Shown here: positions 965 to 34,265 of the stretch, in pieces
Position numbering within the stretch: position 1 is the stretch's first letter
Layout: each line of letters opens with the position of its first letter
Assembly (NCBI RefSeq): GCF_000455285.1
Contig: NZ_HG005291.1
Span: forward strand, 76,488-125,007
Direction of reading: 5' to 3'
Length of the DNA stretch: 48,520 nucleotides
Source: Candidatus Stoquefichus massiliensis AP9
Lineage (GTDB): Bacteria; Bacillota_I; Bacilli_A; Erysipelotrichales; Coprobacillaceae
Notes under the pieces: model-generated
Database searches by the model: none
The model's input: only the letters and a program-made list of their open reading frames with translations
What the model was told of the DNA's origin: nothing
Translations under genes and position numbers: made by a program

Positions 965-1939
965 TTAATCATTCCTTTCATAATGTAATCTATATTCTTG
1001 AGGAGTCATATGAAAATACTTTTTAAAAATACGGTAAAAATAAGATATATTTTCATAACCAACTTCCTGAATAATCTCAGATAAAGGCAATCTTGTTGTC
1101 ACTAAAAGTTCTGTAGCAGTTTTTAGTTTCTTTTCTTGCATAAGTTGAGTAAATGTTTTTCCAGTTTGTTTCTTAATAATCTTACATATTTTATAATCTG
1201 GTTGATGAATATTTTTTGATAAATCTATTAATGTGCCATCATGATAATGTATAGCAATGTATTTTAATATTGTACTGCTCAACACTTTTTCATAAGTATT
1301 ACCCGTATAACTCTCTATATGTTCTGGATGATTCATTAACTCTGTTAATAAAAGACCAACTAACAGTTTTAATTCAATATGATTGTAAAGCTGTGGTTCA
1401 TAAATATTAATAATGATAGATTCAATATAAGAAGTTACTTTTTGATTTTCTTGTACTTTAAACACCAGAAATTCACCATCATTATCATATGAATATAAAG
1501 TATCAAAAATAAATTTTGAAAGAACATTCTCATCTTCTATCATAGTTGATAAAAATCGCAGAAATTCTGGTCTTATAATAAAATTAAAGATAATATCATT
1601 TTCATGACAATAATCAATAGAGTGTTCAATATTCTGATTTAACAAAAGAAGTTGACCTGTTTCAATTGTGATATCTTGACTATTGATATGATGTGTCATT
1701 GTTCCACTATAGACATACATTAATTCAACATAGTTATGACGATGTGAGGGATACTGAGTGAATCTTGCATGTTTTCTTACAGAGAACATTTGATTATCAT
1801 TTAAAAGATGATGATAGTCTATAATATTGGAATTTTCATTATAAAAGATACTTTTATCTATTGTTTGTATCCCATTCAATGAGTTGATTTCTTCTTCAGT
1901 AAAACAAACAAGCTGTTCTAATATGTATGTAGGTATCAC
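965..1939 (-). CDS. AraC family transcriptional regulator with cupin sensor
   Basis: This is a DNA-binding regulator of the AraC/XylS family. The N-terminal half has a cupin-like sugar-sensing fold, with the His-rich segment PSHRHNYVELMYVYSG and the following beta strands. The last 100 residues hold the two helix-turn-helix motifs, ending in the family signature YENISYFYRIFKKYF...TPQEYR. A longer frame opens with ATG at 1987. I prefer the GTG at 1937-1939 because it has a near-perfect AGGAGGGG site seven bases upstream, giving 324 residues. It lies downstream of the PTS and GH78 genes on the same strand. A paralogous AraC gene diverges on the other side of them, so both probably control this sugar locus. 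The ligand is unknown. Confidence 0.85.
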   Translation of the reverse strand: MIPTYILEQLVCFTEEEINSLNGIQTIDKSIFYNENSNIIDYHHLLNDNQMFSVRKHARFTQYPSHRHNYVELMYVYSGTMTHHINSQDITIETGQLLLLNQNIEHSIDYCHENDIIFNFIIRPEFLRFLSTMIEDENVLSKFIFDTLYSYDNDGEFLVFKVQENQKVTSYIESIIINIYEPQLYNHIELKLLVGLLLTELMNHPEHIESYTGNTYEKVLSSTILKYIAIHYHDGTLIDLSKNIHQPDYKICKIIKKQTGKTFTQLMQEKKLKTATELLVTTRLPLSEIIQEVGYENISYFYRIFKKYFHMTPQEYRLHYERND

Positions 1940-9158: not shown

Positions 9159-9416
9159 TATACATTTATAAAAACAAAAACATTGATGTGACAAAGTAAA
9201 AATTCCTGAGACATAAGAGATATGATGGTTGGTGCAAATCATACGTTAAGGAGTTTTGAATTCACCACGGAGTTGTTATTCTGATAAGGAATAACCGGAG
9301 TCATAACGTTATTTATGAAAAGTTTTCAACTTACGAAGGTTATACTTGTGAAAGTATAACAAACTGAGGTGGTACCGCGATCACTCGCCCTCTATGAGCG
9401 AGTGTTTTTTGTTTTT
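9159..9416 (+). ncRNA. T-box leader, specifier TTC (Phe), upstream of ABC transporter
   Basis: This is a tRNA-sensing attenuator. Visible parts: AGTA of the specifier loop (9195-9198); stem AATTCCT/AGGAGTT (9201-9207 with 9249-9255); the AGAGA element (9216-9220); the apical hairpin TATGAT/ATCATA enclosing GGTTGGTG; GAA followed by TTC ACC (specifier at 9261-9263); the T-box bulge TGGTACC (9370-9376); and a terminator CACTCGC/GCGAGTG (9382-9388 with 9398-9404) with a T run. The codon after GAA and before ACC is TTC, phenylalanine. The bulge base after TGG is T, which pairs with an A73 tRNA such as tRNA-Phe and argues against tRNA-Trp, which has G73. The leader should allow read-through into the transporter genes when the cognate tRNA is uncharged. 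Confidence 0.9.
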
Positions 9417-25139: not shown

Positions 25140-25362
25140 AAAATAAAAAAGTCATTCCTTACAAGGAACGACTTATATCGCGGTACCATCCTTATTCATA
25201 ATCTAAAGATTATGCTCTCTAAGTCGATAACGCTGACTATGCGTTGATGTTTACATCACTCTTCAAAGTAGCTTTCTTTATATATTCATAGAAATTTTCA
25301 CCAACCATTTCCTCTCTATCATGAATCATATAAATACTTCTCTTTTTCAACGATTTGACTCA
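25140..25362 (-). ncRNA. T-box leader of alaS, specifier GCT (Ala)
   Basis: On the minus strand: AGTA of the specifier loop (25335-25338), a TTTATAT/ATATAAA stem, GGTTGGTG in the upper stem, and GAAA followed by GCT AC (specifier complementary to 25270-25272). The T-box GGATGGTACCGCG sits at 25179-25191. A terminator pairs 25150-25158 with 25165-25173, followed by a T run. The specifier matches alaS, and the bulge TGGT fits tRNA-Ala with A73. The promoter is at 25366-25394. Confidence 0.93.
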
Positions 25363-32534: not shown

Positions 32535-33503
32535 TTAATCAAAGATTTCATTTTTTATTTTTAATAAATTTTCTGGTAATGGACACGTCACAACATAATC
32601 TTGTAAATATTTCAAACAACCTATAGGTTTTACAAATTGAATTTGATAGGCATGTAAGAATTGATGATTTAAGTGATATGTCTTTTTTATGATTTTATTC
32701 AATTCAAAATCACCATATTTACTATCACCAATAATAGGATGTCCTACACTTGCTAAGTGAATACGAATTTGGTGAGTCCGTCCAGTCACCAATTTTACCT
32801 TTAATAATGAATAGTGATTTTGCATTTTTATATTTTCTACTATTGTATGCATCATTAAAGCACCTGGTGTACTCTGTGAAACAACTTTTGACAAAGAGCG
32901 ATCACTTTCCTTTTTCATATATCCAATTAAATCTTGAGAAGGCATGTTTCCTTTACAGATTGTTAAATATGTCTTATCAATACAATGACGTTTTTTCATC
33001 ATTTCATTTAAATCCTGCAAAGCTCTCATCGTTTTACCAAAAATAACAATCCCACTTGTATTACGATCAAGACGATGAACTGGACCAGGAGTAAAACCTA
33101 ATGATTCATGAGGATCATATTCATCATTTTGAACAAGATATGTCAAAACCTGATGAGATAAAGTATTGATATCTTCATTAATATCTTCATGAACAAGTAA
33201 TCCTGCTGGTTTCCCTACTATTAATATATTTTCATCTTCATATAATACTGAAAATTCAATCTTTAAATCATAAATTGTCTCTGGTTTCGTATATTCTTTA
33301 AATTTATCATCATATAAAAACAATTCTACAATATCACCAGGCTGCAAAATATAATTTTCTTTAATTCTTACACCATTCACCTTAACATCTTTTTTTCTTA
33401 ACATTTTATAAATGAGTTGTGCTGGTGCCTGACATAATAATTTCTTTAAATATTTATCAATTCTTTGATTAGCATGATTTTCATCTATTTCTATTTTTTT
33501 CAT
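32535..33503 (-). CDS. RluA family 23S/tRNA pseudouridine synthase
   Basis: This enzyme converts uridine to pseudouridine in RNA. It is 322 residues. An N-terminal S4 RNA-binding domain (MLRKKDVKVNGVRIKEN, LQPGDIVELF) precedes the catalytic domain. That domain has HRLDRNTSGIVIFGKT, with the catalytic Asp, and the end block KLVTGRTHQIRIHLA. The S4 fusion fits the RluC/RluD branch, but the target site cannot be fixed. The frame opens at 33536; ATG 33503 has GGTGAT in front and is the better start. Confidence 0.92.
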   Translation of the reverse strand: MKKIEIDENHANQRIDKYLKKLLCQAPAQLIYKMLRKKDVKVNGVRIKENYILQPGDIVELFLYDDKFKEYTKPETIYDLKIEFSVLYEDENILIVGKPAGLLVHEDINEDINTLSHQVLTYLVQNDEYDPHESLGFTPGPVHRLDRNTSGIVIFGKTMRALQDLNEMMKKRHCIDKTYLTICKGNMPSQDLIGYMKKESDRSLSKVVSQSTPGALMMHTIVENIKMQNHYSLLKVKLVTGRTHQIRIHLASVGHPIIGDSKYGDFELNKIIKKTYHLNHQFLHAYQIQFVKPIGCLKYLQDYVVTCPLPENLLKIKNEIFD

Positions 33504-33566
33504 TTTATCACCAGTCTCATTATACAGAAATTTCACATAAAAATATACAAAAATTCTTTGAAAGCC

Positions 33567-33594
33567 TTTACAACTTATAAATATTTGGTATAAT
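33567..33594 (+). promoter_or_regulatory. Promoter of the candidate small RNA
   Basis: TTTACA (33567-33572) and TATAAT (33589-33594) are separated by 16 bases, with TTGG just before the -10 box. It points away from the RluA gene toward the short RNA described next. Confidence 0.65.
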
Positions 33595-33599
33595 AATGT

Positions 33600-33707
33600 T
33601 GTTAAGTGATGTTCACTTAATCATACCCCCCTATTATCACCCTAACGTGTAAATAATAGAGAGAATAAGAAAGTATGCTCCCCCGCGTACTTTCTTTTCT
33701 TTTTTTA
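33600..33707 (+). ncRNA. Candidate small RNA with C-rich loops and UCCCCC terminator loop
   Basis: The sequence has a good promoter at one end and a strong terminator at the other, with no open frame between. Hairpin 1 pairs TTAAGTGA with TCACTTAA (33602-33609, 33613-33620). An unpaired CCCCCC run follows (33626-33631). Hairpin 2 pairs CTATTAT with ATAATAG (33631-33637, 33653-33659) around a loop containing CACCC. The terminator hairpin pairs 33667-33678 with 33685-33696, has the loop TCCCCC, and ends in a T run. C-rich loops that match Shine-Dalgarno sequences are known in Gram-positive regulatory RNAs such as RsaE. A riboswitch leader for the Nudix gene is the alternative, but the T run ends before that gene's own TATAAT at 33711. 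Confidence 0.6.
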
Positions 33708-33737
33708 TGGTATAATAAGGTACAAGGAGTGATGAAA

Positions 33738-34265
33738 ATGGAAAAAGAAGTAAATAGAACAGTTATTTTTGATGGAAAAATAATGCAAGTTACTAAAGAA
33801 GAAGTTGAACTTATAGATGGACAACATGCCTTTAGGGAAGTTGTATATCATCATGGAGGTGTTTGCATTTTAGCAATCAAAGATCATCAGATCTTATTAG
33901 TCAAACAATTTAGATACCCTAATCGTATCAACACGTTAGAAATTCCAGCAGGTAAATTAGAAAAAGATGAAGATACTAAGGAATGTGCATTTCGTGAATT
34001 AGAGGAAGAAACAAATAATCGTGCTCAAGATATGAAATTCATCATGAAAGTCTTACCATCTCCTGGTTATACAAGTGAATGGTTATACCTATATGAAGCT
34101 ATTGACTTTGAAGAAGTTGATGATTCTTTAGATTGTGATGCTGACGAGTTTATTGATGTTATTCAATTAGATATTAATGATGCTTATCAAAAAGTGTTAA
34201 ATGGTGAAATTGTAGATGCAAAAACTGTCATTGCCATTTTATATGCATACTCAAAAGGTCTATAA
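33738..34265 (+). CDS. nudF: ADP-ribose pyrophosphatase-type Nudix hydrolase
   Basis: The product is 175 residues, a cytoplasmic hydrolase that likely cleaves ADP-ribose to AMP and ribose 5-phosphate. The Nudix box starts at AGKLEKDEDTKECAFRELEE, with the metal ligands in REL-E-EE. The preceding block VCILAIKDHQILLVKQFRYP and the end block SPGYTSEWLYLYEA fit the YqkG/NudF group. The start is ATG 33738, because the other in-frame ATG at 33732 is only two bases from AAGGAG. A TATAAT at 33711-33716 and a terminator that overlaps the stop make it monocistronic. Confidence 0.93.
   Translation: MEKEVNRTVIFDGKIMQVTKEEVELIDGQHAFREVVYHHGGVCILAIKDHQILLVKQFRYPNRINTLEIPAGKLEKDEDTKECAFRELEEETNNRAQDMKFIMKVLPSPGYTSEWLYLYEAIDFEEVDDSLDCDADEFIDVIQLDINDAYQKVLNGEIVDAKTVIAILYAYSKGL

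Follow-up and report, generated by a model that had tools for sequence, protein, structure and literature searches.

Our comparative analyses show that the window, a stretch of 48,520 nucleotides from Candidatus Stoquefichus massiliensis AP9, contains a small RNA (sRNA) gene with conserved C-rich loops, and both the gene and the loops are well supported. Its product is probably a stand-alone, trans-acting sRNA of about 105 nt whose C runs serve as seeds on G-rich Shine-Dalgarno sites, with ilvC as the best predicted target; what it targets and how it acts are inferred. Since the Rfam 15 covariance models gave no match at the gathering score, with only unrelated sub-threshold matches at E values up to 10, and since a literature search retrieved no description of small RNAs in Erysipelotrichia gut commensals such as Thomasclavelia and Faecalibacillus, we consider that it is a new RNA family of known functional kind, outside all Rfam families. 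If the proposed function holds, the RNA would represent a conserved riboregulator, with a testable amino-acid target, of bacteria seemingly devoid of Hfq.

Table 1. Features of the sRNA locus, in window coordinates.
Feature	Positions	Strand	Remarks
RluD-type pseudouridine synthase gene, divergent, locus marker	32535..33503	-	Pfam PF00849, PF01479
Conserved box TGAAAGCCTTTACA, consensus TGWAANCCTTTACA	33559..33572	+	Overlaps the -35; kept in nearly all homologues
Promoter TTTACA-16-TGGTATAAT, extended -10 TGG, TATAAT	33567..33594	+	Kept in homologues
sRNA gene, about 103-106 nt	33601..33706	+	5' start and 3' end predicted
Hairpin 1, 9 pairs	33601..33621	+	5 of 9 pairs changed on both sides
Seed region CAUACCCCCCUAUUAUCAC: C run, then 5' arm of hairpin 2	33622..33640	+	Almost invariant
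Hairpin 2, CCUAAC/CCUUAC loop	33631..33659	+	Pairs mainly invariant, hence weak covariation
Intrinsic terminator hairpin, 12 pairs	33667..33696	+	10 of 12 pairs changed on both sides
Terminator T tract	33697..33706	+	Read from sequence
Separate extended -10 TGGTATAAT of the Nudix gene	33708..33716	+	Read from sequence
Nudix hydrolase gene, neighbour outside the RNA	33738..34265	+	Pfam PF00293

The sRNA gene occurs as a single copy in this genome. Its promoter matches the consensus at 11 of 12 positions and ranks first among the 23 promoter-like sites found in 4 kb; we infer a 5' start 7 bases past the -10. The RNA is predicted to fold into three hairpins (-32.6 kcal/mol versus -9.7 for shuffled sequences, z = -9.4, none of 200 shuffles being as good), and the most stable part of this fold is the terminator (stem 33667-33678/33685-33696). 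A scan of 408 kb, made up of the window and 360 kb of contig C4, yielded 112 terminator-like hairpins, and that of the sRNA is the only one with at least CCC in its loop. The proposal of an earlier note, made from the letters of this DNA, that a candidate regulatory RNA lies here between a good promoter and a strong terminator is thus upheld by the best promoter in 4 kb, a 12-pair stem and the z-score of the fold. The three C-rich parts described in that note were also recovered: CCCCCC (33626-33631), directly 5' of hairpin 2 and unpaired in the predicted fold except for its last C, which pairs within hairpin 2; CACCCUAAC, included in hairpin 2, whose loop is CCUAAC; and the UCCCCC loop of the terminator (33679-33684). 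An independent promoter together with an intrinsic terminator, and conserved C-rich motifs at unpaired positions, are among the features by which C-rich trans-acting sRNAs of Firmicutes are recognized, and this RNA has both.

The promoter with its box TGWAANCCTTTACA, the core ACCCCCUAUUAUCACCC and the C run of the terminator loop are conserved among homologues. An unpaired CCCCCUA is kept 5' of hairpin 2, and the terminator loop reads UCCCCC, ACCCCC or GCCCCC. When 34 distinct sequences are aligned by fitting to the model, 93.8% of the cells pair, 17 pairs are changed on both sides (versus 5.0 in shuffles, 0 of 500 reaching this value) and the covariation score is 0.204 (versus 0.109, again 0 of 500), figures that are flattered because the alignment was fitted to the structure; a plain MAFFT alignment yields 11 pairs changed on both sides. 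The signal is destroyed when the partners are slid, and most of it comes from the terminator, with 10 of its 12 pairs. Conserved C loops accompanied by compensating stem changes, which the earlier note had named as the supporting evidence to look for, were therefore both found, in the form of the 17 double-sided pairs and the retained C-rich loop. Some copies go further: the terminator arms of L030, L032 and L033 are wholly different while the loop is still C-rich, and L022 has rebuilt its hairpin 2 around another stem. Hairpins 1 and 2 differ in sequence in the most divergent copies; CCCYCUA and the C-rich terminator loop are kept and are predicted to be mostly unpaired. The evolutionary signature is clear, C-rich loops persisting and stems being replaced, as expected if function resides in the C runs and not in the stems.

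BLASTN found the element in most genomes of the same family. Homologues occur in 37 of 43 Coprobacillaceae genomes (34 detected by BLASTN and the covariance model, three divergent copies by synteny), upstream of and divergent to the same pseudouridine synthase gene, which adjoins every copy whose flank was read. The covariance search in related genomes suggested in the earlier note, run over 315 genomes of the order, returned 31 matches with E < 1e-12, all of them within Coprobacillaceae (43 genomes), and zero matches at this threshold in the about 270 other genomes of the order. Weak model matches in G018, G020 and G026 were added by reading the gap beside the pseudouridine synthase gene, which also revealed copies too divergent for the covariance model in G008, G016 and G024. 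No copy is present in G005, G010 and G015. The copy of G004 (L116) is broken, with promoter, hairpin 1 and C run remaining and hairpin 3 and the terminator gone, and represents a recent loss; in G029 the sequence diverges past the promoter, with a contig end nearby, and in G061 the pseudouridine synthase neighbour was not found. When the core CCCCTATTATYAYYCTWAYGT was searched for as an exact match in 84,980 species genomes, 27 stretches were obtained, the named hosts including Thomasclavelia (a member of Coprobacillaceae), Longibaculum, Massilimicrobiota, Faecalibacillus, Stoquefichus and Beduini; the matches outside the family (L054 and L063), without promoter and fold, were dismissed as chance. 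Model matches on the opposite strand (L012, L013, L015, L026, L027 and L064) overlap true copies and are explained by the near-palindromic nature of the stems. An IMG/VR match (L065), which carries a glucokinase-type ROK gene, the pseudouridine synthase, the RNA and the Nudix gene, was rejected as a phage RNA, being apparently host flank within a viral record. G028 has, in addition to its intact copy, a decayed one about 1.4 kb away (L020:1554-1651(+)) in which the C runs are lost.

As seeds, the C runs would act in trans on several mRNAs by pairing with their G-rich Shine-Dalgarno sequences; the main effect would be to block ribosome binding, and Hfq would not be involved. The G-rich sites that the earlier note had listed for genes of the window do exist (starts 1939 (-), 5654 (-), 9438 (+) and 13859 (-)), and our results do not contradict these genes as candidate targets; genome comparison nevertheless favours ilvC and, with less confidence, leuC. 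The ribosome site of ilvC has GGGGG in 23 of the 24 Coprobacillaceae genomes carrying the RNA, usually as AAUAGGGGGU, which can pair with CCCCCUAUU of the sRNA; in relatives from the order that are without the RNA the site is AGGAGG or similar, GGGGG being found in 0 of 8, a contrast that involves only eight genomes and is confounded with descent. For leuC the count is 18 of 24. The control gene pncB has GGGGG in this genome but keeps it in only 7 of 23, which indicates that such sites drift when not selected; its GGGGG is confined to near relatives, and we rejected it as a family-wide target. With ilvC as the best predicted target and leuC the second, the RNA probably adjusts the synthesis of branched-chain amino acids, along with other metabolic genes. 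A more ambitious proposal, which we put forward tentatively and with some doubt, is that it might be a family-wide, Hfq-independent controller of this pathway in Coprobacillaceae and that the GGGGG of ilvC and leuC arose and were maintained as its docking sites.

It is quite conceivable that the main targets of the sRNA are other than ilvC and leuC, the GGGGG of ilvC being kept on other grounds, for instance because of coupling within its operon or the strength of translation there. The motif is retained in three of the four family genomes without an intact RNA (G015, G010 and G004), and AGGGGG start sites are not lost together with the RNA, since they are equally common in genomes without it. 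Nevertheless, GGGGG is suboptimal for the ribosome, with a G-U pair in the middle, and is absent from ilvC in all eight order relatives. G010, where the syntenic sRNA gene is absent, encodes elsewhere a C-rich hairpin RNA with the loop CUCCCCCG (L103:1832-1922(-)); our guess is that a second C-rich RNA of this kind could maintain the ilvC motif there.

Within this genome, AGGGGG start sites number 86 versus 30 for the reversed pattern. Across two or three genera, such sites are shared at ilvC, leuC, pncB, ntpI, glgD and amt, among other genes; ilvC and pncB were confirmed by Pfam, and the other names were assigned by eye. Ranking targets by pairing energy in a single genome does not discriminate, ilvC being 10th of 365, and was abandoned. 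Read by eye, the AGGGGG list of this genome seems to hold many amino-acid and nitrogen genes (ilvC, leuC, hisC, argJ, hom, BCAT, an O-acetylhomoserine sulfhydrylase type gene, amt and glgD). The window also has two T-box leaders, at 25161-25359(-) and at 9174-9395(+), the latter directly preceding an ABC-binding-type lipoprotein gene with a GGGGAGG site (start 9438).

By analogy, the RNA most likely acts like LhrC, RoxS/RsaE and FsrA, through trans pairing with G-rich ribosome sites. LhrC of Listeria monocytogenes, whose three UCCC sites have been shown to bind mRNA, is similar in length (about 110 nt) and in the placement of its C-rich sites in a loop, a stretch between hairpins and the terminator loop, and pairs with a G-rich site 5' of the start codon (PMC4132741), as is predicted here. 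By contrast, LhrC is multicopy, targets an adhesin gene and is under the control of LisRK, whereas our RNA is single-copy and has no Rfam match. RoxS/RsaE of Bacillus and Staphylococcus is likewise about 100 nt long with several single-stranded C-rich regions, which bind Shine-Dalgarno sequences of central metabolism genes (PMC8216469, PMC8334554, PMC10433868); it differs from the present RNA, unmatched in Rfam even at E 10, in locus and in the conserved promoter box. C-rich single-stranded regions are shared with FsrA, which targets metabolic mRNAs, and with CsfG, both of Bacillus subtilis (PMC8216469), again in contrast to the lack of an Rfam match here. In RsaD of Staphylococcus aureus, a C-rich region binds the ribosome site of alsSD, an mRNA of the acetolactate pathway (PMC8334554), and the C-rich region of our RNA is predicted to bind a ribosome site in the same way; unlike our RNA, which is without Rfam match, RsaD is a staphylococcal RNA of 176 nt. 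Hfq-dependent sRNAs belong to hosts that encode Hfq, and Hfq (PF17209) was absent in seven Coprobacillaceae genomes in a search whose control was positive in 5 of 14 known genomes.

An improbable alternative is that of a sponge, the C runs capturing a G-rich small RNA, or a protein, instead of mRNAs, given that the conserved G-rich ribosome site of ilvC offers a ready mRNA partner. Other C-rich RNAs were also noticed. A second, distinct hairpin RNA is conserved in genomes of genus g17 (Massilimicrobiota), its C-rich loops being ACCCCUCUCCCUA and, in the terminator, UUUCCCC (L104:1978-2064(-), L105:1391-1476(+) and L106:1632-1717(+)). Further candidates, at L102:1940-2044(-), L103:1832-1922(-) and L107:1671-1793(-), have either UUCCC(UUCCC) in a linker or CCCC in the terminator loop.

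The earlier note had itself raised the alternative of a riboswitch continuing into the Nudix gene, that is, a leader RNA with ligand-sensing hairpins and a terminator that serves as an attenuator. The Nudix gene does come next in most genomes, and a terminator ahead of a gene is the usual layout of attenuators, but we regard this reading as very unlikely. Every member of a riboswitch or attenuator class would sit in the 5' leader of the gene that it regulates, whereas here the terminator precedes an extended -10 of the Nudix gene's own, immediately 3' of it and conserved as a similar TGNTATAAT in many homologues; G016 and G024 have the sRNA copy without a Nudix gene beside it, and in the genus of L016-L020 a different sequence intervenes between the two. 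Moreover, no antiterminator was seen, the terminator being the most stable element, and hairpins 1 and 2 are freely replaced while the C runs persist, so that what is conserved is the C runs rather than a ligand-type fold. The earlier note needs one amendment, in that an in-frame ATG at 33675 lengthens the Nudix ORF back into the terminator; we rejected this coding extension because the frame is not maintained in homologues. It is hardly credible that the element is a plain transcription terminator conserved by chance, with an RNA devoid of function, since, common as strong terminators are in this DNA, no convergent transcription runs into this one, promoter and seed are conserved upstream of it, and its loop sequence persists while the stem changes.

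For the stand-alone sRNA, the timing of synthesis would probably be set by a regulator bound at the -35 box. In several genera this box is a near-palindrome, TGTAA-N4-TTACA, making it a candidate operator, presumably for a repressor whose site overlaps the promoter. It has a cre-like outline, but with a central CC where cre has CG, and a relaxed pattern fits only three loci in the genome. Because TGAAAGCCTTTACA itself has a single exact occurrence there, membership of a cre regulon and control by CcpA are not supported. The box TGAAAGCCTTTACA followed by TATAAT is also present in a genome of the sister family (G047, L035 about 1501-1546(-)), where it stands before another transcript.
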